This document shows, one piece after another, positions 19,147-52,534 of a stretch of DNA of 64,000 nucleotides (the stretch's first letter is position 1; every line of letters begins with the position of its first letter). Under the pieces are notes generated by a model. That model was not told the origin of the DNA and did no database searches. It was given only the letters and a program-made list of their open reading frames with translations. The stretch comes from Corylus avellana (lineage: Eukaryota; Streptophyta; Magnoliopsida; Fagales; Betulaceae): positions 620,001-684,000 of the forward strand of contig NC_081549.1 of the NCBI RefSeq assembly GCF_901000735.1. The letters are read 5' to 3'. Both the position numbers and the translations under genes were made by a program.

Positions 19147-20830
19147 ATGGCTTCTCAAGCTTATCAGCAGCTTCACTTTATTTTGTTTCCAATGATGGCG
19201 CAAGGCCACATGATTCCAATGATGGATATTGCCAAATTGCTGGCGCAGCGAGGCGTGGTTGTCACCGTAGTCACCACAACACATAATGCTGCGCGTTTCG
19301 AACCAACCATTGCTCGTGCAGTGCACTCTGGTCTCCAAATCCAAGTCATCCGACTTCACTTTCCATATCAAGAAGCAGGTGATTTTTCAAAAACTGTAGC
19401 TTTAATAATTTAATTTATATTCTGATGCGTGTGAGCCAGGAAAGTGAATGACGAATATAGAGTTCGAACTCAATGACAAAAACAGGATTCGAGCCCATGA
19501 ATTCTGGTATTTTAAACTGGCTTTTATTTCAAAAAACTTAAAAAACAATTAATTTAATTATTTAATTTATATTCTAACGACAGGAATACCAAACGGGTGT
19601 GACAATCTCGACAAGCTTCCTTCACTACAACTGGCCATGAATTTCTTCGGTTCAACCAGCAAGCTGAAAGAGCCAGTGGAGAAGTTGTTTGAGGAGCTGG
19701 CACCGCCACCAAGCTGCATAATCTCCGACATGTGCTTGCCGTGGACGGCTGATATTGCTAGCAAGTATCACATCCCAAGACTTTCGTTCCTCGGCGTAGG
19801 CTGCTTCTGTCTCTTGTGCTTTCACAATTTACGTGTCCACAAAACTCACGAGACCATATCCTCGGAGTCTGAATACTTTTTTGTGCCGGGCTTGCCTGAT
19901 CATATTGAATTCACTAAATCGCAAATAGCTATAACCGCAGATCCACAAATGGAAAAACTTGGCCAGAAAATGATAGAGGCTGATTTAGCCTCATATGGGG
20001 TTCTGGTTAATACTTTCCAGGAGCTAGAGCCAGAGTATGTCAAAGAATATAGGAAGGCAAGAGAAGATAAAGTCTGGTGTGTTGGCCCTGTTTCTCTTTG
20101 TAACAATGAACATTTAGATAAGGCTGAGAGAGGTAACAAAGCCTCCATTGAAGAATATCAATGCTTGAAGTGGCTTGATTCTCAACAACCCTGCTCTGTT
20201 GTCTATGCCTGCCTTGGAAGCCTATGTAATCTAATAACTTCCCAGTTGATTGAGCTCGGATTGGGATTGGAAGAGTCAAAGAAACCATTCATTTGGGTCA
20301 TAAGGGGGTCAGCAAAAAACAAAGAAGAGTTGGAAAAGTGGATTTCAGAAGACAGATTTGAAGAAAGGATTAAAGGGAGAGGCCTTTTGATTCGGGGTTG
20401 GGCTCCCCAGTTACTGATATTGTCCCATTCTTCAGTTGGAGGGTTCTTAACGCATTGCGGTTGGAATTCAACCATAGAATCAATATCTGCTGGGGTGCCG
20501 ATGCTTACATGGCCGCTCTTTGGAGACCAGTTTATCAATGAGAAACTTGTAGTGCAGGTGAGAAAAATTGGTGTGAGGGTTGGGGTGGAGGATCCTGTGA
20601 AGTGGGGTGAGGAGGAGAAGATTGGGGTGTTGGTGGAGAAGGAAGATGTTAAGGCGGCCATAGACATGCTAATGGATGAAGGAGAGGAAAGAGAGGAGAG
20701 GAGGAAAAGAGCAAGAGAGCTCGGGGATATGGCAAAGAGAGCTGTTGCAGATGGGGGGTCTTCTCATGTCCAAATTACACAGCTGATTCAAGAAATTATG
20801 CGACAAGCAGGTTGTGAAGAGTCAACCTAA
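19147..20830 (+). CDS. UDP-glycosyltransferase, UGT73C-like (UGT copy 2, intact, one intron)
   Basis: Two exons, 19147-19378 and 19584-20830, give 492 residues. The intron is phase 1 within EAG|IPNG. Catalytic His21 is in [12 protein letters not shown] and Asp126 in [10 protein letters not shown]. The PSPG box runs from [12 protein letters not shown] through [10 protein letters not shown] to WPLFGDQ, ending in Gln as expected for glucose transfer. A tempting ATG at 19142 is out of frame; 19147 starts [11 protein letters not shown] like its paralogues. The intron is TRIM-like (separate entry). The closest relative in the window is the broken copy at 28931, which shares the intron position. Confidence 0.93.
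19380..19579 (-). mobile_element. TRIM-like element forming the intron of UGT copy 2
   Basis: Flanked by GCAGG (19375-19379) and ACAGG (19580-19584), a 4/5 target duplication. The element begins TGATTTTTC. It has a first LTR-like end AATTTAATTTATATTCTGA near 19406-19427, a middle with GAGTTCGAACTC and GGATTCGAGCCC resembling the TRIM internal region, and a second end TATTTAATTTATATTCTAAC at 19559-19578. That gives an LTR-internal-LTR layout in antisense. Paralogue 32447 keeps the empty site GCAGG at 32688-32692. Confidence 0.65.
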
Positions 20831-21461
20831 CGGACTTATATTAAAGATAGAGTTATTTCTCTTCATCTCATGATACCAAAGTGCAGATTGTTGATTGCTA
20901 AATTCATTTTGATGTAAAAAATTATACGCGACTAGCATGTATTTTTATGTGATTGATTTGTTCCTATTTTAATAATAATAATAATAGACACAAAAAAAAA
21001 AAAAGAAAAAAAAAAATTGGCTCAAAGTCTGTTCAAATGAACATGGGATGGTGGAAGAAAAAGTGGTTGCGGGTGGCTACTCCCAATTGAACATCCATAT
21101 TGAATAGCTGGAAATGTCCTATTATCGAATAACAGGATGCAAGCTCACTGCAATTAGAGTCATACGTATCTCGGAAGAGAGAGAATTCTAGTTCTATCTG
21201 TAACCTCATCATCTTTGGAAGAACCAAAATTCCTGTAGTGACTTCTGTATTGGATCCATGCACGCAGAAGCAAACGTACTGCATCCACAGAATTCTACTT
21301 TATTCTGTAACCTCATAATCCTTGGATAAACTTGCATGCTTATGTAGGCTCTTACGTCACCAGAAAGGCCCTTGTATTGAGTGCCAAGCTGCCTCTTGAA
21401 CTGTCATGCATATTTAAAAGGAAGAAGAAGCCTACCCAATTGAAGAAACTCATCAATTGCC

Positions 21462-22948
21462 ATGGCTTCCCAAGCCCACCAGCTTCACTTGGTCATGTTT
21501 CCTTTGATGGCCCAAGGCCACATGAATCATGATCCCCATGGTAGACATTGCTAGATTGTTAGCTCAACGGGGTTCGATTATTACCGTTGTCACCACATCA
21601 CATAACGCAGCCCGTTTCAAAACAACCATTGCTCGTGCTGTAGAATCCGGTCTCCAAATCCAATTGATTCAACTCCGGTTCCCATGTGAAGAAGCAGGAT
21701 TACCAGATGGGTGTGAGAATTTCGACATGCTACCTTCAATAGACTTGGCTTTCAATTTCTTCACCGCAACTGAAATGTTATATCAGCCAATGGGCAAGTT
21801 GTTCGAAAATCTAACACCCCGGCCAAGTTGCATAATCTCTGACGTGTTTACCATGGACAGCAGATCTTGCTCGCAAGTTTCACGTTCCTAGGATTTCTTT
21901 CAATGGAATGTCTTGCTTCTGTCTCTTATGCATGCACACTTCACACATTTCCAAGGTTCAAGAGAGCATCACTTCAGAATCTGAGTACTTTGTCTTGCCT
22001 GGCTTGCCTGACCAAATTCAAGTAACTAAAGCCCAGCTGCTAGGACTCCCGACTCCAAATTTGAAAGAATTTGGTGAGCGAAGGACAGCAGCTGAAATGG
22101 CATCCGATGGAGTAATTATGAACACATTTGAAGAATTGGAGCCTGCATACATCAAAGAATACAAGAAGGCAAGAAATGATAAAGTCTGGGGTGTTGGCCC
22201 TGTTTCACTTTGCAACAAAAACGACTTGGAAAAGGCTCAGAGAGGAAATATTAAGGCCTCAATGGATGAGGATGAGCACCAATGCAAGAAGTGGCTAGAT
22301 TCAAGGGAACCAAGCTCTGTGGTCTACGCATGCCTTGGAAGCCTTTGCAATCTGATACCTTCCCAACTGATAGAGCTTGGGATGGGCTTAGAAGCATCAA
22401 AAAAACCATTCATTTGGGTTATAAGGGGAGGAGATAAGTTAGAAGAATTTGAAGAGTGGATTAAAGGAGATGGATTTGAAGAAAGGATCAAAGGGAGAGG
22501 CCTCTTAATCAGGGGTTGGGCTCCCCAAGTATTTATACTATCACACCGTGCAATTGGAGGGTTCTTAACACATTGTGGTTGGAATTCAACAATAGAAGGG
22601 ATATGTGCAGGCATTCCTTTGGTTACTTGGCCGCTATTTGCTGATCAGTTTTTGAATGAGAAACTCGTTGTACAAGTGCTGAAAATTGGTGTTAGGATTG
22701 GGGTAGAGGTGCCTCTAAACTTGGGAGAGGAGGAGAAGATTGGGGTGTTGGTGAAAAAGGACGATGTTAAGAGGGCCATAGACAGGCTGATGGAGGAAGG
22801 AGTGGAAAGAGAAGAAAGGCAAAAAAGAAGCAGAGAGCTGAGTGAGATGGCAAAGGGAGCTGTGGAAGAAGGGGGATCTTCTGACCTCAACATGAAGTTA
22901 CTAATCCAAGATAGCATGGAACAAGCAAGTGGTGGAAATCAGAAGTAA
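21462..22948 (+). pseudogene. UGT73C-like pseudogene (daughter of UGT copy 1, two frameshifts)
   Basis: This is nearly identical to the 16341 gene from upstream region to 3' UTR. Two differences break it. A 7-base insertion after GGCCACATGA (near 21525) falls right behind the catalytic His codon. A 2-base loss in CTGACGTGTTTACC (near 21843) hits the Asp motif CIISD. The net shift is not a multiple of three, so three frames are needed: 21462-21528, 21529-21845 and about 21846-22948. The C-terminal half (21908 onward) is still open and has a full PSPG box with two changes (WAPQVFILSHRA). Recent inactivation is inferred. Confidence 0.9.
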
Positions 22949-23887: not shown

Positions 23888-24120
23888 TCTTAGGGCTTGT
23901 TTAGAATTGCGTTTGATGGGCTTAAAAATGCTTTTAACATTAAAAAAGTTAGTTTGAATAAAAAAGTACTCGTTTGATAAAAAAATTAAAAGCGTTTTTA
24001 AGGGTCTAAAAAGCTTAAAAATGGCCAAAAAACACTTTTGGCAAAAGTTTAAAAATAAAGTTTTTGCCCAAAAACTTTTTTTTTACTTAAAAGCTTTATT
24101 TCTCAAACGCAATCTTTAGT
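23888..24120. mobile_element. MITE with GTTTAGAATTGCGTTTGA-type ends
   Basis: GGGCTTGTTTAGAATTGCGT at the left is answered by AACGCAATCTTTAG at the right. The interior is a string of AAAAAGCTT/AAGCGTTTTT motifs. This matches the common plant MITE pattern 'GGCCTGTTTGG ... GCGTTT'. It is absent from the parental spacer. Confidence 0.65.
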
Positions 24121-28656: not shown

Positions 28657-28699
<43 letters not shown>

Positions 28700-28930: not shown

Positions 28931-30529
28931 ATGGCTTCTCAAGCTCAGCAGCTTCACTTTGTCTTGTTTCCAATGATGGCGCAAGGCCACATGATTCCAA
29001 TGATGGACATTGCCAAATTGCTGGCGCAGCGAGGCGTGGTTGTCACCGTTGTCACCACAACACATAATGCTGCGCGTTTCGAACCAACCATTGCTCGTGC
29101 AGTTCAGTCTGGTCTCCAAATCCAAGTCATCCGACTTCACTTTCCTTATCAAGAAGCAGGTGATTTTCCATTAACTTAAGCTTTTATAATTTAATTTATA
29201 TTCCAACGCTCACCCTTATCCCAAAAAGCATAAAAAGCTTAAAAATTAATTAATTTACTCATTTAATTTATATTCTACTTCAGGACTACCAGAAGGGTGC
29301 GACAATCTCGACAAGCTCCCTTCACTACATCTGGCCAAGAATTTCTTCGGTTCAACTAGCATGCTGAAAGAACCGGTGGAGAAGTTGCTTGAGGAGCTGG
29401 CACCATCACCAAGCTGCATAATCTCCGACATGTTGTTGCCGTGGACGGCTGATATTGCTCGCAAGTTTCACATCCCAAGACTTTCGTTCCTCGGAGTAGG
29501 CTGCTTTTGTCTCTTGTGCATTCACAGTGTACGTGTTCACAAACCTCACGAGACCATATCCTCGGAGTCTGAATACTTTGTCGTGCCCGGCTTGCCTGAT
29601 CATATTGAACTCACTAAATCGCAAATGGCTTTAGCCGCAGATCCAGAAATTGAAAAATATGCCCAAAAAATGATAGAAGTTGATTTAACCTCATATGGGG
29701 TTCTGGTTAATACTTTCCAGGAGCTGGAGCCAGAGTATGTCAAAGAATATAGGAAGGCAAGAGAAGATAGAGCCTGGTGTGTTGGCCCTGTTTCTCTTTG
29801 TAACAATGAATATTTAGATAAGGCTGAGAGAGGTAACAAAGCCTCCATTGAGGAATATGAATGCTTGAAGTGGCTTGATTCTCAACAACCCTGCTCTGTT
29901 GTCTATGCCTGCCTTGGAAGCTTATGTAATCTAATAACTTCCCAGTTGATAGAGCTCGGATTGGGCTTGGAAGAGTCAAAGAAACCATTCATTTGGGTCA
30001 TAAGGGGTTCAGCAAAAAACAAAGAAGAATTGGAAAAGTGGATTTCTGAAGACAGATTTGAAGAAAGGATCAAAGGGAGAGGCCTTTTGATTCGGGGTTG
30101 GGCTCCCCAGTTACTGATATTGTCCCATCCTTCAGTTGGAGGGTTCTTAACGCATTGCGGTTGAATTCAATCATCGAATCAATATCTGCTGGGGTGCCGA
30201 TGCTTACATGGCCGCTCTTTGGAGACCAGTTTATGAATGAGAAACTTGTAGTGCAGGTGCGACAAATTGGTGTGCGGGTTGGGGTGGAGGATCCTGTGAA
30301 GTGGGGTGAGGAAGAGAAGACTGGGGTGTTGGTGGAAAAGGAAGGTGTTAAGGCGGCCATAGACATGCTAATGGATGAAGGAGAGGAAAGAGAGGAGAGG
30401 AGGAAAAGAGCAAGAGAGCTTGGGGAGATGGCAAAGAGAGCTGTTGCAGATGGGGGGTCTTCTCATGTCCAAATAACACAGCTGATTCAAGAAATTATGC
30501 GACAAGCAGGTTGTGAAGAATCAACCTAA
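28931..30529 (+). pseudogene. UGT73C-like pseudogene (daughter of UGT copy 2, one-base deletion in PSPG box)
   Basis: Exons 28931-29159 and 29284-30529 match the 19147 gene, including the intron position. Translation is open through FLTHCG, then a single missing G (GCGGTTGAATTC here, GCGGTTGGAATTC in the parent) creates TGA at 30162-30164 inside the PSPG box. The frame after it (to 30529) still encodes the normal end, DAAVQ-free but with [14 protein letters not shown]. As read, the enzyme loses the HCGWNS donor-binding core. With only one lesion in a GG pair, a sequencing or assembly error remains possible. Confidence 0.85.
29161..29279 (-). mobile_element. TRIM-like LTR pair forming the intron of UGT copy 4
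   Basis: GCAGG at 29156-29160 and TCAGG at 29280-29284 flank the element. Inside are two LTR ends, TTTAATTTATATTCCAACG (about 29190-29208) and CATTTAATTTATATTCTAC. A second LTR start shows CACCCTTATCCCAAAAAGC and AAAGCTTAA. It is a shortened version of the intron in the 19147 gene. Confidence 0.65.
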
Positions 30530-32446: not shown

Positions 32447-33940
32447 ATGGCTTCTGATCAACAATCCCACCAGCTTCACTTCATCTTGTTTCCTTTAATG
32501 GCCCAAGGCCACCTGATTCCCATGATAGACATGGCCAAAATGCTGGCACAGCAGGGCATGACTGTCACTGTAGTCATCATATCACATAACGCAGCCCTTT
32601 TGGAAAAGAGTATGCCTCTTTCAATTGAATCTGGTCTCCATATTCGAGTTATCCTGCTTCAGCTCCCATGTCAAGCAGCAGGAATCCCAGAAGAGTGTGA
32701 TACCATCGATGATCTTCTTTCAAATGGTCTTTCCCCGACTTTCTTCACTTCAACTAGCATGCTACAGCAGCAAGTGGAGAAGTTGTTTGAGGAGCTGTCA
32801 CCGCCACCAAGCTGCATACTTTCCGACTTGTGCTTGCCGTGGACAGCTAATGTTGCTTGCAAATTTCACATCCCAAGATTTTCTTTCCTTACAGTGAGTT
32901 GCTTCTGTCTCTTGTGCTTGCACAATTTACGCATTCACAGTAAGGTTGTCGAGAGCATGACATCCTCGGAGTCAGACTACTTTGTCTTGCCAGGGTTGCC
33001 TGGCCATCATTTGTTCACTAAATCACAGCTAGCTTTTTCCTCTGATCCAGATCCGGCAATGAAAAAATTTAACGAGGAAATGGTAGCAGCAGACCTAGCC
33101 TCGTATGGGGCTATTGTGAATACTTTCAGAGAGTTGGAGCCAGAATATATTAAAGAATATAGCAGGACAAGGAAAGGTAAAGTTTGGTGTGTTGGTCCTG
33201 TTTCACTTTGTAACAAGGACAACTTATGGAAGGCTGAGAGAGGCAACAAAGCCTCCATTGAAGAATATGAATGCTTGAAGTGGCTTGATTCTCAGCAACC
33301 CTGCTCTGTTGTGTATGCCTGCTTTGGAAGCCTTTGTAATCAAACACCTTCCCAGTTGATAGAGCTTGGATTGGGATTGGAAGAGTCAAAAAAACCATTC
33401 ATTTGGGTCATTAGGGAAGCAAAAATCTCAGTAGTATTGGAAAAGTGGATTTTAGAAAATGGATTTGAAGAAAGAGTCAAAGGGAGAGGCCTTTTGATTC
33501 GGGGTTGGGCTCCACAATTACTGATATTGTCGCATCCTTCAGTTGGAGGGTTCTTTACACATTGCGGTTGGAATTCAACCATAGAAGCAATATCTTCTGG
33601 GGTCCCAATGCTTACATGGCCTCTCTTTGGAGACCAGTTTATCAATGAGAAACTAGTAGTGCAGGTGCTGAAAATTGGTGTGAGGGTTGGCGTAGAGGAT
33701 CCTGTAAATTGGGGTGAGGAGGAGGAGAAGAATGGGGCGTTGGTGGAGAGAGAAAATGTTAAGGAAGCCATAGACATGCTAATGGATGAAGGAGAGGAAG
33801 GAGAAGAGATGAGGAAAAGAGCAAGAGAGCTCGGGGAGATGGCAAAGAGAGCTGTTGAAGATGGGGGATCTTCTCACATAGACATGACACTACTAATTCA
33901 AGATATCATGCAGCAAGCAGGCTGTGGAAAATCAGCCTAA
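32447..33940 (+). CDS. UDP-glycosyltransferase, UGT73C-like (UGT copy 5, intact, intronless)
   Basis: 497 residues in a single exon. Catalytic His22 is in [12 protein letters not shown] and the Asp in CILSDLCLPW. The PSPG box runs from [12 protein letters not shown] through [13 protein letters not shown] to WPLFGDQ. The GDQ ending and YACFGSLCN place it closest to the 19147/28931 pair, yet it has no intron: the matching site AAGCAGCAGGAATCCC (GCAGG at 32688-32692) is undivided. That makes it a natural empty-site reference for the intron gain in the pair. The role is probably glucosylation of a small hydrophobic acceptor in the cytosol; the acceptor is unknown. Confidence 0.95.
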   Translation: MASDQQSHQLHFILFPLMAQGHLIPMIDMAKMLAQQGMTVTVVIISHNAALLEKSMPLSIESGLHIRVILLQLPCQAAGIPEECDTIDDLLSNGLSPTFFTSTSMLQQQVEKLFEELSPPPSCILSDLCLPWTANVACKFHIPRFSFLTVSCFCLLCLHNLRIHSKVVESMTSSESDYFVLPGLPGHHLFTKSQLAFSSDPDPAMKKFNEEMVAADLASYGAIVNTFRELEPEYIKEYSRTRKGKVWCVGPVSLCNKDNLWKAERGNKASIEEYECLKWLDSQQPCSVVYACFGSLCNQTPSQLIELGLGLEESKKPFIWVIREAKISVVLEKWILENGFEERVKGRGLLIRGWAPQLLILSHPSVGGFFTHCGWNSTIEAISSGVPMLTWPLFGDQFINEKLVVQVLKIGVRVGVEDPVNWGEEEEKNGALVERENVKEAIDMLMDEGEEGEEMRKRARELGEMAKRAVEDGGSSHIDMTLLIQDIMQQAGCGKSA

Positions 33941-34461: not shown

Positions 34462-35952
34462 ATGGCGTTGAAATCCCACCAGCTTCACTTCGTGATGATC
34501 CCGTTGATGTCTCCAGGACACCTTATTCCTATGACTGACATGGCCAGGCTATTTGCCCAACATGGTGCTATCATCACAATAGTCACCACTCCCCTTAACG
34601 CCATCCGGATCAGACCAGCCATCAGCCGCGCCAATGAATCCGGGCTCTCTATCCGGCTTCTCCAGCTCCAATTTCCACTCCATGAAGCCGGCTTGCCAGA
34701 AGGGTGTGAAAATATGGATGCAGTCCCCTCACGCAGCTTATTCAGAAACTTCTTGGCTGCTGTTAGTAAGTTGCGGCAACCGATAGAACAATTACTTGCA
34801 GAGATGGAACCCTGCCCGAGCTGCATAATAGCAGATAACCATCTTGCTTGGACAGCTGATGTTGCTGACAAGTTTCATATACCAAGACTTTTGTTTGATG
34901 GGACAAGTTGTTTCAATCTTTTGTGCTGTCATAATCTACACGCATCATCCAAGGTTCTCGAGAGTGTTTCTGGTTCAAATCAGCCCTTTACAGTGCCTGG
35001 TTTACCTGATCGAATTGAATTAACCAAAGCACAACTACCATCTAGCTTGAATCCGAGCATTAAAGATTTTAGAGATCTTCATGCAAAGATAAGAGCTTCT
35101 GGGGAAAGAGCTTATGGCGTGGTGGTCAATAGTTTTGAGGAGTTGGAATCAGAATATGTTAAAGAATATCGCAAGGCAAAAGGCGATAGATCAGTTTGGT
35201 GTATTGGCGCAGTGTCATTGTCCAACAAGGCAGACTTGGACAAGGCGCAGAGAGGTAACAACTCCTCAATTGATGAAAACAAGTGCCTGAAGTGGCTTGA
35301 TTCATGGCCTCAGAGCTCTGTTGTTTATGCTTGTCTTGGAAGCCTTAGCCGCCTTCCACCTTCACAACTAATAGAGCTTGGTTTAGGCTTAGAAGCCTGC
35401 AACAGGCCATTTATCTGGGTGCTTAGAGGAGATGAAAATGGAGAGATGGAGAAGTGGATAAAAGAGGATGGCTTTGAAGAGAAGACAAAAGGGAGAGGCC
35501 TCTTGATCCGGGGCTGGGCTCCGCAGGTACTAATCTTGTCACACCCTGCAATTGGAGGATTTTTGACACATTGCGGCTGGAATTCGACGCTGGAAGGGGT
35601 TTGTGCAGGCGTGCCAATGGTAACATGGCCTATTTTTGCAGAACAATTTTTTAATGAGAAGTTGGTTGCACAAGTGTTGAAGATTGGGGAGAGAGTGGGG
35701 AATGAGATAGCTGTTCCTTTAGGAGAGGAAGGTAAGTATGGAGTCTTGGTGAATAGGGAGCAGGTTAGGGAGGCTATAGGAAAGATAATGAGTGAAGGGA
35801 AAGAAGGGGAAGACAGAAGAGAGAGATCAAGCAAGCTTGCAGAGATGGCAAAGAAGGCAACAGAAGAGGGAGGATCTTCTTACCTCAATATTACATTTTT
35901 AATGGAAGATATTAGGAAACTAGCCTTTGGCCATCAAGCTTTAAGTCATTAG
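34462..35952 (+). CDS. UDP-glycosyltransferase, UGT73C-like (UGT copy 6, intact, intronless)
   Basis: 496 residues from the ATG at 34462 (MALKSHQLHF), chosen because every paralogue starts about ten residues before the first strand; the ATG at 34264 adds a 66-residue head without similarity. His20 is in IPLMSPGHLIPM (SPG instead of the usual AQG). The Asp is in CIIADNHLAW. The PSPG box runs from [12 protein letters not shown] through [10 protein letters not shown] to WPIFAEQ. It keeps two uninterrupted sites that carry introns in relatives: AGAGGTAAC (GGTAA at 35254-35258) and CGCAGGTACT (GGTAC at 35526-35530). A decayed copy of its 3' end follows at 36296. Confidence 0.94.
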   Translation: MALKSHQLHFVMIPLMSPGHLIPMTDMARLFAQHGAIITIVTTPLNAIRIRPAISRANESGLSIRLLQLQFPLHEAGLPEGCENMDAVPSRSLFRNFLAAVSKLRQPIEQLLAEMEPCPSCIIADNHLAWTADVADKFHIPRLLFDGTSCFNLLCCHNLHASSKVLESVSGSNQPFTVPGLPDRIELTKAQLPSSLNPSIKDFRDLHAKIRASGERAYGVVVNSFEELESEYVKEYRKAKGDRSVWCIGAVSLSNKADLDKAQRGNNSSIDENKCLKWLDSWPQSSVVYACLGSLSRLPPSQLIELGLGLEACNRPFIWVLRGDENGEMEKWIKEDGFEEKTKGRGLLIRGWAPQVLILSHPAIGGFLTHCGWNSTLEGVCAGVPMVTWPIFAEQFFNEKLVAQVLKIGERVGNEIAVPLGEEGKYGVLVNREQVREAIGKIMSEGKEGEDRRERSSKLAEMAKKATEEGGSSYLNITFLMEDIRKLAFGHQALSH

Positions 35953-37758: not shown

Positions 37759-39329
37759 ATGGATTCCGAACCCGATCAGCTTCACTTTGTTCTCATACCG
37801 TTAATGGCACAGGGCCACCTTATCCCCACCGTAGATATGGCCAGGATATTGGCACAGCGTGGCGTGACTGTCACCATCGTCACCACACACCTTAATGCCG
37901 CCCGACTCAACGTGACCATTGATCGAGCCATCGAATCGGGGCTCCGGGTCCGGCTTCTCAAGCTCCGGTTTGCATGCACCGAGGCCGGGTTGCCGGAGGG
38001 ATGTGAGAACATAGATGCCCTCCCCTCACGAGAGCTGTCCAAGAATTTCTTCCACGCCATTAGCATGCTGCAATACCCAGTTGAGCAATGCTTGAAAGAG
38101 CTTCAACCTCGTCCAAATTGCATCATCTCCGACAGATATATTCCATGGACAGCTGACACTGCTCGTAAGTTTCAGATTCCAAGGCTGGTTTTCGATGGGA
38201 CAAGCTGCTTCGCAAACACATGCTCCCACAGCATAAGTGTTTCCAGGATTCACGAGAAGGTTAATTCTGAGTCGGAGTCCTTTGTTGTGCCCGGTTTGCC
38301 TCATCGAATAGAGTTGACTAAGGCTCAATTACCCGAAGTCTTTAATCCAGGCACGATTCACTTGAGCGACTTACACCAGAAAATTGAAGCTGCAGAAATG
38401 GCAGCATATGGGACAATTCTCAACACTTACGAGGAGTTGGAAACAGAGTATATCAAAGAATATAGAAAGGTGAAAGGAGGTAAGGTTTGGTGTATTGGCC
38501 CAGTGTCACTGTACAACAAGGATACCTTAGATAAGTCTCAAAGAGGCAACAAATCCTCCATAGATGAAGTCCAGTGCATAAAGTGGCTTGATTTATGGCC
38601 TGCAAACTCTGTTCTTTATGCTTGTCTAGGAACCCTCAGTTGTCTTGAGCCTAAGCAACTGATTGAATTAGGACTGGGCTTGGAAGCTTCCAACCGTCCA
38701 TTCATATGGGTTCTAAGAAAAGGATACAAATCAGATGAACTCGAGCAGTGGATTTCAGAAGAAAAATTTGAGGAGAGAACAAAAGGAAGAAGCCTTTTGA
38801 TCCGCGGTTGGGCTCCACAGGTACAGTTAAATCACCGTTTATCCCAGCAGTTTAAAGCAGCTTTTATATAAATGAAAGAATTTAATCCTTTTAATTTATA
38901 TTCTATCAGGTACTGATACTATCTCACACAGCCATAGGAGGGTTCTTGACGCACTGCGGTTGGAACTCTACACTCGAAGGGATATGTGCAGGAGTGCCGA
39001 TGATAGCATGGCCTCTGTTCTCTGACCAATTCTACAATGAGAAATTTGTTGTGCAGGTGCTGAGTATTGGAGTGAGTGTGGGTGCTGAGCATGCTATAAA
39101 GTGGGGGAACGAAGAGAATTATGGGGTGCTGGTAAAGAGTGAGGATGTAAAGAATGCCATAGAGCTGCTGATGGATGAAGGTGATTGGGAAGGAGAGAAG
39201 AGAAGAAAAAGAGCCAGAGAGCTTGCAGATATGGCAAACAAGGCTGCAGGAGGAGGATCTTCGTACCATAATATTACACTGCTGATAGAAGATATCAGGA
39301 AACATGCCATTCTCAACAAATTAAGCTAA
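37759..39329 (+). CDS. UDP-glycosyltransferase, UGT73C-like (UGT copy 7, one intron inside the PSPG box)
   Basis: Exons 37759-38820 and 38910-39329 give 493 residues. His20 is in [12 protein letters not shown] and the Asp in [10 protein letters not shown]. The 89-bp phase-0 intron divides the donor-binding PSPG box itself, [12 protein letters not shown]; the box continues through [10 protein letters not shown] to WPLFSDQ. Reading through the intron gives a stop after [16 protein letters not shown], so correct splicing is needed for activity. No other UGT here has an intron at this place. The intron resembles the antisense TRIM LTR (separate entry). Promoter signals were not recognised. Confidence 0.93.
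38825..38908 (-). mobile_element. Antisense TRIM solo LTR forming the intron of UGT copy 7
   Basis: An 84-bp element, AGTTAAATCACC to TTCTATCA, lies between exact 5-bp duplications GGTAC (38820-38824 and 38909-38913). It follows the complement of the LTR at 47834-47910 nearly throughout: TTAAATCACCGTTTATCCCA versus TTAAATCACCATTTGTCCCA, AGTTTAAAGC versus AGTTTAAGCC, AATTTAATCCTTTTAATT versus AATTTAATCACTTAATT, TTCTATCA versus TCTTAACA. The 34462 paralogue has the undivided GGTAC. Confidence 0.8.
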
Positions 39330-40184: not shown

Positions 40185-41770
40185 ATGGCTTCTTCAGAGT
40201 CTCCCCAGCAGCTTCACTTTCTGTTGATACCTTTGATGTCCCAAGGCCACCTTATACCCATGATAGACATAGCCAAAATATTGGCACAACACAACGTCGT
40301 AGTAACCATAATCACCACGCCGCTCAATGCCGTCCGATTTACCAACACCGTCGACCGCGCAGTGAAATCCGGGCTGTCCATCCGAATTCTCCAGCTTCAG
40401 CTGCCATGTGTAGAGGCTGGCTTGCCGGAAGGATGTGAGAATCAGGACTCTCTCCCTTCGCCAGATTTCATGAAGAATTTCATCACCGCGATGAGTATGT
40501 TGCAGCAACCGCTAGAGCAGTGGCTAATTGAAGATCAGGCGCTAAAACCCTCTCCAAGCTGCATAATATCTGATAAAAACCTCGCATGGACGGCTGATAC
40601 CGCCATCAAATTTCGTCTTCCTAGAATTTTGTTCGATGGTACAAATTGCTTCAATCTCTTGTGCACCCACAATTTACACAAGTCCAAAGTCTACGCAACT
40701 GCTTCAAGTTCAGAGCTTTTTGAAGTGCCTGGGTTGCCGGATCGAATCGAATTCACAAGAGCTCAGCTTCCTCGAGCCTTCAATCCAGGCTCCAACCTGC
40801 AAGATATGAAGATTATTCGTGAAAAGATAAGGGAAGCTGAAGCAGGAGCTTATGGATTACTGGTCAACAGTTACGAGGAACTGGAACCAGCATATCTCCA
40901 AGAATATCGGAAGACTATAGGAGGAAAAATATGGTGCATTGGCCCTGTATCTCTCTGCAACAAGGAGAAATCGGACATGTCAGAAAGAGGTAACGTTAAA
41001 TTATCATTTAAATTAATAAAAAATTAAATAAATGTAATCATTTAATTTATATTTTAATAGGTAAGAAGGCTTCTACGGATGAAAACCAGTGCTTGAGGTG
41101 GCTTGATTCACGGCCGTCGAATTCTGTGATTTTTGCGTGTCTAGGAAGCCTAAATCGGCTTCCACCCCAGCAATTGATAGAGCTCGGTTTAGGCTTGGAA
41201 GCATCGAATAGGCCATTCATCTGGGTTATACGAGGTGGATATAAAAGAGAAGAAATGGAAACTTTGTTATCAGAAGATGGTTTTGAGGAAAGGGTAAAAG
41301 GAAGAGGCTTTTTGATCTGGGGTTGGGCACCACAGGTGCTGATTTTGTCGCATCCAGCAATTGGTGGGTTTTTAACACATTGTGGATGGAATTCGACGCT
41401 GGAAGGGATTAGTGCTGGCGTTCCGATGGTGACATGGCCTTTGTTTGCTGAACAGTTTTTCAATGAGAAGTTTGTGGTGCAAGTGTTGGAGATTGGTGTG
41501 AGGGTGGGAGTTGAGGTGGTCATGTATTGGGGGGATGAAGAGAAGTTTGGGGTGCTGGTGAAGAAGGAGAATGTGAAGGAGGCTGTAGAAAGGGTAATGG
41601 GTGAAGGAAAAGAAAGAGAAGAGAGAAGAGAAAGAGCAAGAAAGCTTGCACAGATGGCAAAGAAGGCAATTGGAGAGGGGGGATCTTCTTATCTCAACGT
41701 TAAATTACTTGTTGAAGACATCATGCAATTGGCAAAAAAGCAATCAAATGTACATCATGATTACATCTAA
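40185..41770 (+). CDS. UDP-glycosyltransferase, UGT73C-like (UGT copy 8, intact, one intron)
   Basis: Exons 40185-40989 and 41061-41770 give 504 residues. His22 is in [12 protein letters not shown] and the Asp in [10 protein letters not shown]. The PSPG box runs from [12 protein letters not shown] through [10 protein letters not shown] to WPLFAEQ; the residue before GWAPQ is Trp (LIWGWAPQ) where relatives have Arg. The 71-bp phase-1 intron splits the Gly codon in SERG|KKAS, in the interdomain linker, the same place as in the 50965 gene. Unspliced, it stops after LSFKLIKN. The intron is a TRIM LTR derivative (separate entry). Confidence 0.93.
40994..41059 (-). mobile_element. Antisense TRIM solo LTR forming the intron of UGT copy 8
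   Basis: A 66-bp element, CGTTAAATTATCATTTAA to TTTATATTTTAATA, sits between exact 5-bp duplications GGTAA (40989-40993 and 41060-41064). Compared with the LTR complement it has lost part of the middle but keeps both ends and the stretch TAATCATTTAATTTATATT. Undivided AGAGGTAAC occurs in the 19147, 28931 and 34462 paralogues. Confidence 0.75.
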
Positions 41771-42928: not shown

Positions 42929-43900
42929 GCTTGTGAAAACAAAACCCTTCACTTTGTTTTGCTCCCCCTCTTGGAGCAAAAACAAAACCGCCACCATAAT
43001 CACCACCCCCCTCAACGCCGCTCTAACAAAACCGATCGTAGATCGGGCCTCGGACGCGGGACTTCATAGCCAACTTCTCCAAGTACAATTTCCATACGCT
43101 GATGTTGGATTGCCTCAAGGATGCGAAAGCATTGACGCCCTTCCCTCTAGAGAAATTTGAATTTTGTCAATTGATAGAGCTAGAAGAGCTGGAGAAATGG
43201 ATTTCAGAAGAAAATTAAGTTTGGGGAAAGGGTGAAAGGGAGAGGCCTTTTGATTAAGGGTTGTGTAACAGTTCTGTTTGTAACAATTCTGTTCTTATAA
43301 TAGCTGTTAATGAATGCAAATATAGAAAGGAAAGAGAGCAATAATAGAAATAATGAATGAATTGACTATTGAACTAGGTATTTCGAGGAAACATAAATCT
43401 CATTGAGTATTCGAGGACTCATCCTCCAAGTTTATAATGAACAATTGTCTACAAAACTACCGATTACATTTTTATTCAGACTATTTATACATCCTCCTCT
43501 AACTAACACTTCAACTAACTCTCAACTAACTAAACTGTATTATAATCTTCTCAACTAACTAAAGTATATTATAACAGTACCTATTACAGGTTGGGCTCCA
43601 CAGGTGTTGATTTTGTCACACCCTTGCAGTTGGAGGGGTTCTTGACTCATTGTGGTTGCCGGCTTGCCAATGATAACGTGGCCACTGTTTGCTGAACAGT
43701 TTTATAACGAAAAGTTTGTAGTACAATTGTTGAAGATTGGTGTGAGTTTAGGGGCTCAGTTTGCTGTGCAGTGGGGAGATGAAGAGAAATTTGAGGTTGT
43801 GATGAAAAAGGAACAAGTTAAAAGAGGTATAGATCAGTTGATGGATGAAGGAGATGAAGGACCCAAAGAAGCTATATATTACCCCAAAATAATTAATTAA
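42929..43900 (+). pseudogene. UGT73C-like pseudogene, internally deleted and carrying a solo LTR
   Basis: The start MACENKTLHFVLLPLLEQ has lost the GHLIPM strip with the catalytic His, then continues TTPLNAALTKPIVDRA and [16 protein letters not shown]. About 210 codons are then missing: the sequence jumps to [12 protein letters not shown] and on to GRGLLIKG. A 325-bp solo LTR (43264-43588) interrupts the start of the PSPG box. After it, [12 protein letters not shown] continues with frameshifts and the [10 protein letters not shown] stretch is partly deleted. The open tail (43652-43900, [17 protein letters not shown]) ends early at IIN. It cannot make an active enzyme. Confidence 0.9.
43264..43588. 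mobile_element. Solo LTR (325 bp) in the UGT pseudogene, 5-bp target duplication GGTTG
   Basis: The element begins TGTAACAGTT and ends CTATTACA, with TG..CA borders, and exact GGTTG duplications flank it (43259-43263 and 43589-43593). Removing the element and one copy restores AAGGGTTGGGCTCC of the UGT. Left behind by recombination between the two LTRs of a larger retrotransposon, by inference. Confidence 0.88.
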
Positions 43901-45872: not shown

Positions 45873-47324
45873 ATGGCTTCCCAAATTGATCACCAGCTTC
45901 ACTTTCTTCTTGTTCCGCTAATGTCCCAAAGCCATCTCATTCCCTTCACAGACATGGCCAAACTACTTGCACGCCGTGGCCTAAATGTTACCATTATCCT
46001 TACACCTCTTAATGCAGTCCGGTTCAACACAATCCTTGATCAAGCAAAAGCCTCCAACCTCAACATACAATTCATTTCACTACCGTTTCCTTGCCAAGAA
46101 GCTGGCTTGCCTCAAGGCTGCGAGAACATGGACACCCTCGCATCTCCCGATTTACTCCCACAATTTTTTGAAGCAAGTAACATGCTGCAAAAACCACTAG
46201 AGATGTGGCTAGAAGGGTTGGAATCTTCTTCTAGGCCTAGCTGCATTATTTGTGACATATGTCTTCCTTGGACCTCAGATGTCGCTCTCAGGTTCAAGAT
46301 TCCAAGGCTTATCTTCCATGGAATATCTTGCTTCACTCTCTTGTGCTCTCACAACATATCTCGCTCCAAGGTGCTCGAGGGAGTCAAATCTGACTCGGAG
46401 CCATTTTTGGTCCCAAACATGCCAGATAGAACTGAATTCACTGCGGCCCAGCTGCCTGAAATAGTGAAACAAATTTCTGGTGACTTGAGAGATCTTATTG
46501 ACCGATTTAATGCTGCTGCAATTTCGGCACAAGGGATGTTGGTGAACACTTTTGAAGAGTTGGAGCCAGGGCACGTCAAAGAATACCAGAAAGTGGTCGA
46601 GAAGATTTGGTGCATCGGGCCCCTATCTTTAGCAAACAAGTCCTCCATTGATGAGCCGGAGCCCGAGTGCTTGAGGTGGCTGGATTCGATGAAGCCAAGC
46701 TCTGTGATTTACGTTTGTTTTGGGAGTCTCTGCCACTTGTTAGCCTCACAATTAGTGGAGCTTGCTTTGGGATTAGAAGAATCCAACCATCCTTTCATCT
46801 GGGTGGTTAGGAAAGGAGATTACTCAACAGAATTAGAAAAATGGTTTGTAGAAGAAAAGTTTGAGAAGAGGATTGAAGGGAGGGGTGTTGTGATTCGAGG
46901 ATGGGCGCCACAAGTTCTAATCCTTTCACATCCAGCCATTGGAGGGTTCTTAACTCATTGTGGATGGAATTCAACGCTAGAGGGAATAAGTGCCGGCTTG
47001 CCGATGATAACTTGGCCGATGTTTGCTGAGCAGTTCTACAATGAGAAGTTGGTTGCACAAGTGTTGAGGATTGGTGTGAGGGTGGGAGTTGAAGCGTGTG
47101 TGCAGTGGGGGGATGAAGAGAAGGCTGGGGTGTTGGTGAAGAGGGAGGATGTAAAGAAGGCTATAGAGCAGTTGATGGAAGAAGGTGAAGAGGGAGAAGA
47201 AAGAAGAAAGAGAGCTAGAGAGCTTGGAGGGATGGCGAAGAGGGCAGTTGAAGATGGGGGATCCTCTTACTTGAACGTCACATCCTTGATCAAACATATC
47301 AGTGAACAGGTATCAGGCAAATAA
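45873..47324 (+). CDS. UDP-glycosyltransferase, UGT73C-like (UGT copy 10, intact, intronless)
   Basis: 483 residues, slightly shorter than its neighbours because the linker (SLANKSSIDEPEPE) is compact. His21 lies in VPLMSQSHLIPF, where Ser replaces the usual Gly before the His. The Asp is in CIICDICLPW. The PSPG box runs from [12 protein letters not shown] through [10 protein letters not shown] to WPMFAEQ. A weak YVCFGSLCHL motif precedes it. The start MASQIDHQLHF matches the family. It probably glucosylates a small acceptor from UDP-glucose, and is among the most diverged copies in the array. Confidence 0.94.
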   Translation: MASQIDHQLHFLLVPLMSQSHLIPFTDMAKLLARRGLNVTIILTPLNAVRFNTILDQAKASNLNIQFISLPFPCQEAGLPQGCENMDTLASPDLLPQFFEASNMLQKPLEMWLEGLESSSRPSCIICDICLPWTSDVALRFKIPRLIFHGISCFTLLCSHNISRSKVLEGVKSDSEPFLVPNMPDRTEFTAAQLPEIVKQISGDLRDLIDRFNAAAISAQGMLVNTFEELEPGHVKEYQKVVEKIWCIGPLSLANKSSIDEPEPECLRWLDSMKPSSVIYVCFGSLCHLLASQLVELALGLEESNHPFIWVVRKGDYSTELEKWFVEEKFEKRIEGRGVVIRGWAPQVLILSHPAIGGFLTHCGWNSTLEGISAGLPMITWPMFAEQFYNEKLVAQVLRIGVRVGVEACVQWGDEEKAGVLVKREDVKKAIEQLMEEGEEGEERRKRARELGGMAKRAVEDGGSSYLNVTSLIKHISEQVSGK

Positions 47325-47459
47325 AAGATGTAACAGAAATGTGTGCCTCTTTTTTGTCGAAAATGGATGTGTTTACTTTTCCTTAATTGCTTGAAAAAAA
47401 ACACAAATAATAATAATGTCATGTATTCCTGCTGTCATGCATGAAAATAAGTATTTAAG

Positions 47460-48130
47460 TAAATACACAATAATGAATAATAAGAAATCAAAAAAACAAA
47501 AAAGAGAGGAGAAAGTCGAGACACATATTTACTTAGTTTGATAATGTGTCTACGTCCACACAAGAGTACAACTATAGTTTATTATTAATGATTTAGGGTT
47601 ATAATATAACATACTTATAAGAAAAATCCTAATTGTAGGGATGTATTTTGAAAAGTTTTAAAATACTCCTATTACTCGGCCAACCAGTAGTTTGAGCCTC
47701 TCTTTTCGTGCAAACCATAATCTTGACATGGTATCAGAGCAGAGGTCTTAAGTTCGAACCCTAACTCCGTAGTTTATCCCTTATTTCAGTTAAAATATTC
47801 CACGTGTTGTCTGATCCCAGACGTGAGGGATAGTGTTAAGATATTAATTAAGTGATTAAATTCACCATTTCCTATTGGCTTAAACTTTTGGGACAAATGG
47901 TGATTTAACATGGTATCAGAGCAAAGTCTTAGGGTTTAACGAAATTGTTTCTCAGTTTCCGCACTCCTCTCTCTTTCAGATTTTTTTTTTCTGACCGGTG
48001 TTGCAACAACACTAGTAGAGTTGGCTTAGGGTTTACCTAATGCCCATGGGTGGAGGTGGATGGCGCTGTCATCACCGTGGTAGTTGGGATGCCGTCACCG
48101 TCGTTGTGAGTATTTCAGTATTACTTTATA
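47460..48130 (+). mobile_element. Nested LTR/TRIM remnants with two methionine-tRNA primer sites
   Basis: TGGTATCAGAGC appears at 47730-47741 and 47911-47922. The second directly follows the 77-bp LTR at 47834-47910. Upstream, 47520-47660 matches the LTR-like repeat at 28560. Downstream (47920-48130) is a leader-like region (AAGTCTTAGGGTTTAACG, CTCTCTCTTTCAG). No protein domains are left. Confidence 0.65.
47834..47910 (+). mobile_element. Reference copy of the TRIM-type LTR (77 bp)
   Basis: TGTTAAGATATTAATTAAG to AAATGGTGATTTAACA, then TGGTATCAGAGC, the usual primer site for initiator methionine tRNA. It has TG..CA ends. Its complement (TGTTAAATCACCATTTGTCC ... AATCACTTAATTAATATC) is the template recognised in the introns of five UGT genes and in copies at 2824, 55750-55980 and 57361-57416. 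Confidence 0.75.
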
Positions 48131-49689: not shown

Positions 49690-50292
49690 TAGGAGTGTAA
49701 ACAAGTTCAGCTTGAGTGAGTTTCTCTTGTTCGGGCTTGATTGTTTAAATTTTACTTGAACTCGAGCTCGAGCCGAGCTTAAAGACGAGTCAAAAAATCG
49801 AGTTCAAGCTTATAATAAGTTAAGCTGAGCCAAGCCAGTTCACGAGCTGACTCTTATATTTTATTTAATTTATTAATTTATTTTTATTATAAATTTAAAC
49901 TTCAAGTATTTTCAAACGGCTTAAGAAGTCAGCTTGCATATGAGCATTTGCTTAATTTGGCTAGCGGACTATGGAGCCCGAGTCAATATAGCAAAGCACT
50001 AGGTTTCGAAGAGAGAGGATATGCATCCTTTTATAATAAAATGATGCTATTAAAAAAAAAAAAAAATTATCAATTTTTAATATTAATACGAAGAATTATA
50101 TGAATAACTACCAATTCGAACCTTATATAAGATACTTACGAGCTTAGACGAATTAATTTCGTTTAATATTCGAGTTAAGATTCGCGTTTACGAAACGCTT
50201 TATTTAATATTCGAGTCGAGTACAAGCCCAACTTATGCAAATTAAGCCTGAGCTCATTCACGAGCAACTTGCTCTCTCTTAAGAGCCCTACA
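49690..50292. mobile_element. hAT-like non-autonomous element rich in CGAGCTCG motifs
   Basis: The left end TAGGAGTGTAAACAAGTTCA and right end CTTAAGAGCCCTA resemble the hAT end TAGGGGTGTAAA. The subterminal parts hold many GAGCTCGAGC/TTCGAGT motifs in both orientations around an AT-rich core. A clear 8-bp target duplication was not found, so the limits are approximate. Confidence 0.45.
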
Positions 50293-50317
50293 TACAGAGA
50301 AAGCATTGCCAGTCACA

Positions 50318-50740
50318 CACGCAAATCAATAGACCATATGCAGTCTGGGTTGAAAGCATGGATGTGACTAATTGGCAATCTACACAGAAAAAAACATTGT
50401 CCATCCATGCCACGACTCGCACGTAAATTGACTAGTCTGGGTTGAAACTGGACAGCATTTGATTGGCAATCTACGAAGAAAAAAAGCACCGTACATGCAT
50501 GTCACTACTCACACGCAAATTGATTGACTAGTTCTTCATGCAGTCCGGGGTTGAAACTTGAAAGCCTGTGATTGGCAATTGCCAATCTACTAAGAAAATA
50601 GCGTCGTGCACAGCTCGCATGCATGTGCAGTACTCTAGGTAATTAATTGAAATTAAGCATGTGATTTGTAATCTTCTAAGAAAAAACATCGTGCATGCAT
50701 GTCGCACGCAAATTGATTGACTAGATCTTTCCGGTTGAGA
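50318..50740. repeat. Four degenerate tandem repeats (~90-110 bp) in the promoter region of UGT 50965
   Basis: Each unit carries CACACGCAAATTGATTGAC, TCTGGGTTGAAA, GATTGGCAATCTAC..AGAAAAA and CATGCATGTC-type blocks. The 'GGCAATCTAC' block (altered in the last unit) is at 50374, 50465, 50573 and about 50666. The array lies 230-650 bp upstream of the start codon. Confidence 0.75.
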
Positions 50741-50964
50741 CGATGAACTAAAAGTAATTAATCTTTCTCGAACATTCTTACCAATTACCAGTAAATTGTT
50801 GAATCATTCAAAGTCAAGGTAACCTGCCCAACAAATACGCCATGGCATGCATTACAAATAATTTGGTGATCATTCACCAAACTAAAATCCATCTCCACCT
50901 GTTCGATTCCTTTGCTTTCAATTAATCATCATCATCACTGATCGATTCTTCTGCAAATTAAGTA

Positions 50965-52534
50965 ATGGCTTCCGCAATTACTCACCAGCCTCACTTTGTT
51001 CTTATACCACTCATGGCACAAGGCCACATGATCCCCATGATAGACATGGCCAGGCTCTTTGCAGAGCGTGGCGTTATTGTAAGCTTGGTGACAACCCCAT
51101 ACAATGCCTCAAGATTTCAAAGAGCTATCAACCAAGCAAGAGGGGATGGCCTCCCGTTTCGCCTTGTTCAGCTCGAATTTCCATGCCAAGAAGTTGGACT
51201 TCCTGCAGGATACGAGAACCTTGACATCCTCCCCTCAAGAGACCTACTCAGAAAGTTCTACAAAGCTCTTAGCATGCTCCAAAAACCACTCGAAAAACAC
51301 CTCGAGAAAGAAACCCCCCCTCCAACTTGCATTATATCTGACAAGTGCCTCTCTTGGACATCCATCACAGCTCAAAACTTCAACATCCCACGGCTTGTTT
51401 TTCATGGGATGGGCTGCTTCTCACTTTTGAGCTCCCATAACATTAAACTTCACAATGCTCACAATTCTGTCACTTCTGACTCAGAACCCTTTGTGATCCC
51501 GGGACTCCCCCATAGAATTGAGATAACAAAAGCTCAGCTGCCGGGAGCTTTTGTTACCCTGCCTGACTTGGATGATTTCCGAAACAAGATGCAAGAGGCT
51601 GAATCAACCGCCTATGGGGTTGTGGTGAATAGTTTCCATGAATTAGAGAGTGAGTACATTGCGGAGTACGAGAAGGCTATTAAGAAGAAGGTGTGGTGTG
51701 TCGGGCCTGTTTCTTTAAGTAACAAGGAGAACTCAGACAAGTTTGAGAGAGGTAAGTAATTTTAAATCATCATTTATTTTAAAAAGGTTAAATAGATAGA
51801 AAAAAAAAATTAATCATCTAATTTATATTCTGACAGGTAATAAAGCCTCGATTGACGAACAACTTTGCATGGGATGGCTTGACTCGAAGAAACCAGGGTC
51901 GGTTATTTATGCGTGTCTAGGTAGCCTTTGCCGCCTGGTTCCGGCACAATTAATAGAGCTTGGACTCGGCCTAGAAGCATCAAATCAGCCGTTTATATGG
52001 GTGATCAAAACAGGAGATCAAAGATATATGGAGGAGCTGGAGGAGTGGTTGGTGAAGGAAAGATTTGAGGAGAGGATCAAAGGGAGGGGGCTTTTGATCA
52101 AAGGATGGGCTCCACAGGTGCTTATTTTGTCTCATCCAGCCGTTGGAGGGTTCATAACACATTGTGGATGGAACTCAACGCTAGAGAGTGTGTGCTCTGG
52201 TGTGCCGATGATAACATGGCCTCTCTTTGCCGAGCAGTTCTTCAATGAAAAACTGGTCGTCGAAGTTTTGAGGATTGGGATTAAGGTGGGCGTCGAGATC
52301 CCTGTGAGATGGGGGGATGAAGAGAAAGTTGGGGTGTTGGTGAAAAAAGATGGAGTTGAGAAGGCAATAGCCATGCTGATGGATGGGGGAGAAGAAGGCG
52401 AAAAGAGAAGAGAGAAAGCAAGAGAGCTTGGGGAGGTGGCAAAGAGGGCACTGGAGAAAGGAGGTTCTTCTCAGTTAAACATGTCATTCTTGATCGAAGA
52501 TATAACAAAACAATCCACCCATGACAAGGCGTAA
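50965..52534 (+). CDS. UDP-glycosyltransferase, UGT73C-like (UGT copy 11, intact, one intron)
   Basis: Exons 50965-51751 and 51837-52534 give 494 residues. His21 is in [12 protein letters not shown] and the Asp in [10 protein letters not shown]. The PSPG box runs from [12 protein letters not shown] through [10 protein letters not shown] to WPLFAEQ. The 85-bp phase-1 intron splits the Gly codon of FERG|NKAS, the same place as in the 40185 gene, so the two probably inherited one insertion. A (TA)n run follows the stop. It closes the UGT array. A four-unit tandem repeat in its upstream region might influence expression, which is untested. Confidence 0.94.
51756..51835 (-). mobile_element. Antisense TRIM solo LTR forming the intron of UGT copy 11
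   Basis: An 80-bp element lies between exact GGTAA duplications (51751-51755 and 51836-51840). It has TTTTAAATCATCATTTATTT near the start, AAAAAGGTTAAATAG in the middle and AATCATCTAATTTATATTCT plus GACA at the end, matching the LTR complement. An A-run was gained in the middle. Confidence 0.78.

Follow-up and report, generated by a model that had tools for sequence, protein, structure and literature searches.

Exonic insertions of a miniature long terminal repeat (LTR) retrotransposon appear to have become introns at three to four sites of a UGT73-type gene cluster in hazelnut (Corylus avellana), and at dozens of further sites elsewhere in the same genome. Judging from sequence, we give this reading roughly nine chances in ten. 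The window analyzed here is a stretch of 64,000 nucleotides (C9:620001-684000), and the genome searched comprises 369.9 Mb in 12 contigs. The element is a terminal-repeat retrotransposon in miniature (TRIM) with a 77-bp LTR. The novelty lies in TRIM insertions that appear to have turned into introns both in the UGT cluster and in many unrelated genes, a route of which we found no description in land plants.

In the proposed mechanism, the TRIM would insert into an exon by the usual integrase reaction and duplicate 5 bp of the target. Its inserts, of which often only a solo LTR is left, would now be spliced as spliceosomal introns. In the usual mode, the target would be GGTNN. Its upstream copy would supply the donor G^GTNN (the caret marks the splice junction), the antisense LTR would contribute a T-rich tract and its terminal CA, which becomes the acceptor CAG with the G that opens the second copy. 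The predicted mRNA keeps exactly one copy of the duplication, and the protein would hence remain unchanged. For a solo LTR, the predicted intron length is 4+77+1 = 82 nt. A second mode, proposed for UGT genes A and B, would use the target NCAGG. Here, the donor would combine the last G of the duplication with the T of the element's terminal TG, and the acceptor AG would lie in the second duplication copy. Both orientations can work, and all five introns in the window are antisense. Retention was presumably favored where GGT targets give good splice sites.

The five introns of the cluster are the following:

19379-19583, plus strand: intron A, 205 nt, at the EA^G site; antisense TRIM comprising two LTR copies and the internal segment between them.
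29160-29283, plus strand: intron B, 124 nt, at the same EA^G site as A; about 1.5 antisense LTRs, with the internal segment mostly lost.
38821-38909, plus strand: intron C, 89 nt, inside the PSPG box at WAPQ^V; antisense solo LTR.
40990-41060, plus strand: intron D, 71 nt, in the RG linker; antisense solo LTR with an internal deletion.
51752-51836, plus strand: intron E, 85 nt, in the RG linker; antisense solo LTR with extra bases before the LTR head.

These coordinates bear out the initial annotation, which had placed five UGT introns at three unrelated coding positions (EAG, RG linker, and PSPG) and had described 5-bp duplications around them. The duplications of C (GGTAC/GGTAC), D (GGTAA/GGTAA), and E (GGTAA/GGTAA) are exact and straddle both splice sites. 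Intron A is flanked by GCAGG/ACAGG, with the splice reading CAG^GTGATT...ACAG^GAATAC, and intron B by GCAGG/TCAGG. Introns A, C, D, and E each leave an uninterrupted spliced frame between start and stop codon; that of B is open across the junction and breaks further on. A common end block had also been attributed to all five introns; the block of E, CTAATTTATATTCT, is one base off.

Copies of the element were located in the window at four places outside the UGT introns:

47834-47910, plus strand: reference TRIM LTR, 77 bp, with TG..CA ends, followed by the primer-site motif TGGTATCAGAGC.
2825-2893, plus strand: LTR copy in sense orientation, apparently in a long intron of the upstream gene.
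55745-55985, plus strand: degenerate two-LTR TRIM, recognized by eye.
57360-57419, plus strand: LTR copy, apparently in an intron of a minus-strand pectinesterase-like gene.

The primer site that had been reported after position 47910 is present as the motif TGGTATCAGAGC, which we take to fit the initiator methionine tRNA. Ahead of the LTR at 47834, GTGAGGGA is a candidate polypurine tract, seen by eye only. The reference LTR has at least 45 matches in the genome at 80-100% identity (40 scored out of 1144 first-look candidates). Matches to the 77-bp LTR occur in pairs 114-205 bp apart, and one locus (L079) holds a two-LTR element within <300 bp. The family displays the features expected of a TRIM, namely two direct LTRs with TG..CA ends, a non-coding body under 1 kb, a tRNA primer site, and a 5-bp duplication. 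IMG/VR gave no match to the LTR/primer-site pattern or to the protein of UGT gene C.

Homology between the introns and the LTR was evident in BLAST comparisons. The LTR at 47834-47910 matched intron C over LTR positions 2-77 (E 4e-7), intron E over positions 3-77 (E 2e-5), and intron D over positions 2-75 (E 1e-3). Intron A matched more weakly, with E 0.009 for this LTR and 4e-4 for the 2825-2893 copy; intron B was found with the latter copy (E 2e-5). The window was also scanned on both strands of its 64 kb, in 95-bp windows, with an LTR copy from C1 (L010) as the probe. The nine best non-overlapping places, with scores of 58-30, are four LTR copies and the five introns, ranked as LTR 47834, introns C and E, LTR 2825, intron B, LTRs 55746 and 57336, and introns A and D. 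The next scores are 24 (second LTR of the degenerate element, 55911) and 21 (first LTR of intron A), and unrelated AT-rich places score 20 and below; there is no sharp drop after rank 11, and the separation is clear for the nine only.

Against dinucleotide shuffles, the L010 probe gave z values of 7.2-13.8 for the five introns, none of the 2000 shuffles reached any of them, and the opposite strand of the introns scored at background level. With the initially annotated LTR as the probe, B-E were again reached by 0 of 2000 shuffles, and A was weak (z 3.1, reached by 23 of 2000). Intron A aligns nearly end to end with the two-LTR elements L010 and L011, internal segment included. The expectation that the introns would align to TRIM copies better than to arbitrary AT-rich sequence was thereby borne out, as they exceed shuffles, the opposite strand, and all other stretches of the window except the LTR copies. 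As judged from homology, all five UGT introns are confirmed as antisense copies of one 77-bp TRIM LTR. The proposal that their end block is the complement of the 47834-47910 LTR stands for the antisense homology and requires correction for the source, since that LTR belongs to another subfamily and genome copies ending in TTTAATTTATATTCTAACA are closer.

The cluster itself supplies the uninterrupted counterparts of these sites. It comprises nine genes of full or almost full length, of which 28931 is broken, along with one frameshifted UGT copy at 21462 and fragments near 42.9-43.9 kb. Four genes lack an intron, as had been stated initially, and all four run uninterrupted:

16341-17816, plus strand: UGT without intron, empty sites by paralogue comparison.
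32447-33940, plus strand: UGT without intron, empty sites by paralogue comparison.
34462-35952, plus strand: UGT without intron; both predicted pre-insertion targets are present, GGTAC at PSPG and GGTAA at RG.
45873-47324, plus strand: UGT without intron by paralogue comparison.

All three UGT intron sites are empty in window paralogues, and the predicted target is sometimes intact. In the intronless gene 34462, the PSPG site has the sequence CAG^GTACTA, so that the inferred target of intron C, GGTAC, persists there. At the RG site, genes A, B, and 34462 read GAG^GTAAC, which preserves the GGTAA target of D and E in all three. The frameshifted copy (21462-22948) has no EAG intron and shows GCAG^GATT at that site. 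The UGT fragments (42945-43870) lie between D and 45873.

Sequences from relatives extend this comparison. Two open reading frames (ORFs) on JGI contigs, P0011 (371 amino acids) and P0015 (365 amino acids), are 92% and 90% identical to C and read in frame into the homologous intron (VPLNHCLSQQFK and VMFNHRLSQ); intron C therefore appears to predate the split of those lineages. The nearest uninterrupted kin of gene C, the beech-like ORF P0004, runs through both the PSPG and the RG sites, and the Fagus sequence P0012 is its near twin. At the glyoxal oxidase locus L043, a 92% identical sequence on an 18-kb contig of a relative (P0293) is uninterrupted at the intron site. The L043 intron accordingly looks young, unless P0293 is a paralogue or has lost the intron. 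It had been anticipated that distant rosid orthologues sharing all three UGT introns would speak against the proposal. The relatives compared do not share all three: P0004 is intronless at PSPG and RG, and window paralogues are empty at each site. An ancestor without the intron is thus indicated at the sites examined (the UGT sites and L043), with orthology of P0004 and P0293 presumed.

These data bear on the possibility that the introns are old and ancestral and were later invaded by TRIMs, the element merely filling them. TRIM copies do seem, by eye, to sit in ordinary introns at 2825-2893 and 57360-57419; the borders of the latter copy differ by eye from those of the surrounding intron. Three LTR acceptors (L041, L052, and L053) have no donor adjoining the LTR, and one LTR lies in a UGT78-like gene (L012) at a position that we take to be widespread among UGT introns. 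Yet the duplications straddle the splice junctions themselves, leaving a single copy after splicing, and solo-LTR introns barely exceed the LTR plus 5 nt. Moreover, paralogues are intronless at all three UGT sites, and neither P0004 at the C site nor P0293 at the L043 site is interrupted. Later invasion of pre-existing introns is therefore a very improbable account of the introns as a whole. As a separate observation, L012 (C4:7227244-7227325; UGT78-like by our own reading) may represent replacement of an old intron by a TRIM LTR intron, its position being presumably an old UGT intron site.

Repeated exonic insertion, which we favor, need not imply five separate events in the cluster. The initial annotation had spoken of independent intron births from one miniature retrotransposon family; this idea is supported, and five introns do not amount to five events. 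Introns A and B share one site and one clade, and the tree groups A and B with ORFs that begin after the intron. For D and E, enforcing a single clade costs 26.5 log units (approximately unbiased test, p-AU 0.018). This result is tempered by the length of the D and E branches, and their introns resemble each other no more than they resemble others (similarity 30 for D:E and 32 for E:A). Separate insertions of D and E at one GGTAA site are tentatively favored. The sequences point to at least three independent gains (EAG, RG, and PSPG), perhaps four.

The same LTR forms introns in many unrelated genes, which the initial annotation, confined to the UGT cluster, had under-called. A genome search with intron C found eight other places, some of which are introns of other genes. 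A kinase gene, for example, has ...CACACTG^GTAC on one side of the LTR and AACAG^GTGCACGG on the other, and its protein segment is restored by splicing. A wider search used the 3' LTR end together with a GG tail (TTTAATTTATATTCTNACAGG), which occurs 147 times with no more than one mismatch anywhere, tail included, and 29 times exactly; the reversed pattern occurs 0 times. From this search, 36 loci were fetched (20 delivered with the search and 16 more listed), containing 40 LTR acceptors in total. The 3' search targeted antisense ends, and orientation bias lies outside its reach. Sense LTR ends (pattern TGGTGATTTAACA) with a GG tail number 8 versus 3 in the reversed control, a count without a denominator.

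Spliced proteins were written for 21 of these introns. Their hosts encode a DC1-type protein, a subtilase, two receptor-like kinases (one malectin-like), a GRAS protein, a purine-permease-like protein, a glyoxal oxidase, a pectin methylesterase inhibitor/pectinesterase, a C2-domain protein, an isocitrate lyase, two pectinesterases, another kinase, a sugar transporter, a POT-family protein, a lectin-domain protein, a P450, a short-chain dehydrogenase, a WD40 protein, a FAD-oxidase, and one protein without a Pfam match. Sequence-related introns thus occupy many non-homologous positions, comprising three UGT sites and more than 20 other loci in unrelated families.

Several loci illustrate the variety of these introns. 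The subtilase gene L037 carries a sense-oriented solo LTR with TG...CA ends as an 82-nt intron, flanked by GGTGC/GGTGC, and its removal restores the frame GVNILGAWPVPVESN; a Pfam match spans this junction as well. In the pectinesterase gene L036, the true intron measures 965 nt, with GGTAT/GGCAT as the duplication and QNTG^ISIHNC as the restored frame. The length expected for a solo LTR, 82 nt, is found at L039, L063, L069, and the L037 sense intron; L058 has 81 nt, L043 and L072 have 84 nt, and other short introns have 67-91 nt. Some genes (L037, L048, and L049) may have gained more than one intron. L037 has two LTR introns. The pectinesterase genes L048 and L049 (C6:26.35 and 26.41 Mb) are almost identical, and the far end of either locus contains a further LTR-type acceptor; in L048 this second candidate measures 134 nt and has GGTAA/GGTAA flanks.

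A complementary search from the 5' side, with GGTNN followed by TGTTAAATCACC, gave 17 matches versus 1 for the reversed pattern. Fourteen were fetched, and four of these are clear introns in further genes with duplications matching at 4 or 5 of 5 positions:

L070: GGTAA/GGTAT, 78 nt, intron from the 5' search.
L071: GGTAT/GGTAC, 113 nt, intron from the 5' search.
L072: GGTAT/GGTAT, 84 nt, intron from the 5' search.
L082: GGTAT/GGTAT, 257 nt, intron from the 5' search containing a complete element.

L036 is a fifth intron among the 17 matches. The two-LTR element L079 has GGTTC/GGTTC flanks and no visible coding frame. Together with the introns from the 5' search, this copy indicates that insertion of the family leaves 5-bp duplications both within genes and outside them, as is usual for retrotransposons. 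The first four bases are GGTA in 15 of the 17 targets, as a 5' splice site would favor. An insertion preference could explain this bias equally, most of the 17 being candidate introns.

Duplications were then compared across 23 rows, consisting of 20 genome introns and C, D, and E of the window. Excluded were L049, which is a paralogue of L048, and L012, whose position may be that of an old intron; five rows that match at only 2-4 of 5 positions (L034, the first intron of L037, L042, L046, and L057) were included. Exact 5-bp duplications occur in 12 of the 23 rows versus 4.3 expected by shuffling the downstream copies, and 1 in 20,000 shuffles reaches 12. At positions 4-5, beyond GGT, 31 of 46 positions match versus 18.8 expected (0 of 20,000 shuffles).

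Agreement beyond GGT matters for the idea that a single TRIM-derived intron spread by intron transposition through reverse splicing, without repeated TRIM insertion. In keeping with such spread, a sub-family end (TTTAATTTATATTCTNACA) is common to the introns, and a proto-splice site is compatible with the G of GGT. Reverse splicing is not expected to duplicate its target, yet the duplications match beyond GGT. Intron A and L082 hold whole two-LTR elements, L037 has a sense LTR intron with an exact GGTGC duplication, and the same sub-family end occurs in two-LTR TRIMs such as L010, with 222 of 251 such ends lacking GG. We give next to no credence to spread of one intron by reverse splicing and retain repeated TRIM insertion. 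Tandem duplication of AGGT exon segments was also considered as a source of introns and rejected, the intron sequence being that of the LTR and not of the exon.

Annotation offers a view of splicing at one of these introns. When 19473-19506 is joined to 19584-20830, the translation is identical throughout to the NCBI protein P0121 (isoform X2 of gene A), and the model uses the predicted acceptor 19583/19584 exactly. The shorter intron of this isoform is as follows:

19507-19583, plus strand: intron of isoform X2, removing only the second LTR of intron A.

Splicing of the LTR introns is otherwise predicted from sequence, with this one gene model supporting the one acceptor of A. The start codon of P0121 (19473) and its first 11 residues (19473-19506) come from the TRIM-derived intron, and the TRIM may have given gene A an alternative N-terminus.

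A strict rule was also applied, which demands a GGTNN duplication matching at 4 or more of 5 positions, the LTR head directly after it, and open frames on both sides. Sixteen of the 40 LTR acceptors pass; one of them (L051) is a chance pairing, which leaves 15 genuine cases. Among other CAGG sites of the same loci, 6 of 269 pass, and these six include the real sense LTR intron of L037 and, at L036, a true LTR donor joined to a wrong acceptor. Introns C and D of the window pass, whereas A, B, and E fail; these three, together with L045, L048, and L049, are likely cases that the rule misses. Several failing acceptors look like longer introns holding a full TRIM, or like introns with diverged duplications (e.g., L046, GGTAT/GGCTC). 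The suggested check of whether intron borders match element borders was therefore answered in the affirmative, as they coincide, with 5-bp duplications, in unrelated genes elsewhere in the genome.

A number of observations nonetheless weigh against the reading of these sequences as introns born from exonic TRIMs, or narrow its statistical basis. Twenty-four of the 40 acceptors fail the strict rule, and some of these may be TRIMs inside older introns. The 21 donors were chosen by eye, and a blind nearest-GT rule recovers the same duplications at part of the loci only. From the 5' search, the remaining ten of the 14 fetched matches look non-coding or run past the stretch. The donor of isoform X2 (19506/19507) lies inside intron A and not at the outer donor, so that splicing at A may be mixed. 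Other results support the reading, with limits of their own. Of 20 scanned spliced proteins, 14 have a Pfam match running across the junction (one, WD40, only via a model below the cut-off); the junction lies outside the reported best domain stretch in five, and one has no domain. The open frame after the acceptor has a median of 434 nt at 20 loci versus 85 nt at 12 control LTR ends (P 8e-6), some of which face the inside of their own element. GG tails are in excess as well: the exact LTR end occurs 251 times when the GG tail is not required, and GG follows in 29 (11.6%), versus expectations of 9.1 (3.6%) from the G content of the window and 15.7 (6.3%) at 1/16; these 29 ends include gene duplicates (C6, C8, and C10; L044 with L051). 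If 22 or 24 ends are counted as independent, the excess weakens against 1/16 (P 0.07 and 0.03) and holds against composition (1e-4 and 2e-5). The excess is strengthened, on the other hand, by those of the 251 ends that lie internally in their element and were never next to target DNA.

A further possibility is that the insertions are unspliced and lie in decaying genes, their fit to GT..AG being fortuitous. Gene B (28931) is a pseudogene whose frame breaks after the junction, and the donor copy of L051 is mutated to GATTT. However, frames elsewhere rejoin between long open stretches, domain matches run through the junctions, and GG tails are in excess, with the weakening by gene duplicates over 1/16 noted above. 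Intron C is kept in two relatives whose ORFs enter the intron in frame, and the NCBI model splices at the A acceptor. Decay with fortuitous splice motifs is hence highly unlikely as a general explanation, and conversion of exonic TRIMs into introns is the reading that we carry forward.

The origin of new introns in plants is an old open question. Here, one retrotransposon class would explain many introns base by base, including the source of both splice sites, the unchanged protein, and the solo-LTR introns of about 82 nt, and the mechanism predicts which exon sites (GGTNN) can receive introns. The closest known systems are Introners, which were reported in 5% of the species surveyed; the same survey states that it found no evidence for them in land plants (Gozashti et al. 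2022, PMC9860276). About 59% of the judgeable Introner families show DNA-transposon features, and its main text does not use the term "LTR" (PMC9860276). The hazelnut family resembles Introners in that one mobile family provides introns at unrelated positions in many genes and in that splicing would leave mRNA length unchanged, which is the common case among Introners; as in the Symbiodinium case, the 5' splice site would come from the target duplication and the 3' site would be carried by the element. It differs in its LTR origin and its land plant host. On this sequence-based comparison, the hazelnut TRIM acts like an LTR-derived Introner family with a land plant as host.

Other plant elements come close in part. 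SMART/FRetro129 and other TRIMs are miniature non-coding LTR elements with 5-bp duplications, enriched in and near genes, and altered gene structures were reported for 11 sorghum and maize genes (PMC3281118, PMC4717578). In contrast to hazelnut, the portions of these papers that we could consult do not describe precise conversion of an exonic TRIM or solo LTR into an intron. For ONSEN in Arabidopsis (PMC12112155, 2025), a new exonic LTR-retrotransposon insertion is removed from the transcript as an intron, as would be the case in hazelnut; ONSEN, however, is a full-length autonomous Copia element, and, from the accessible part of the report, the exonic case belongs to a laboratory population, with no fixed intron family. 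The terms intron gain and intron insertion occur in plant UGT intron maps (PMC3412749, PMC7542425), with no transposon origin evident in the text accessible to us. A literature search, with coverage mostly without subscription journals, returned no report of TRIM- or LTR-derived intron families in plants. We think it likely that hazelnut is a flowering plant with a genome-wide LTR-derived Introner family, in which scores of introns, possibly >100, arose from exonic TRIMs, antisense and in at least one case sense, with some postdating the split of Corylus from close relatives and with recurrent insertion at GGTAA in D and E.

Some further features of the window were recorded. At 61540-63282 (plus strand), a berberine-bridge-type FAD oxidase ORF has no intron, and the same FAD domain occurs in the L062 gene, which has a TRIM intron. 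A 1367-amino-acid uninterrupted ORF at 9055-13158 (plus strand) carries endonuclease, reverse transcriptase, and zf-RVT domains of the non-LTR retrotransposon type and adjoins exons of the first gene in the window. In the region of that first gene, a stretch of >100 bp at about 6640-6960 (TTGTTATAGCTTCTCCGTACCCAAAAACATG...) recurs nearby, as seen by eye.

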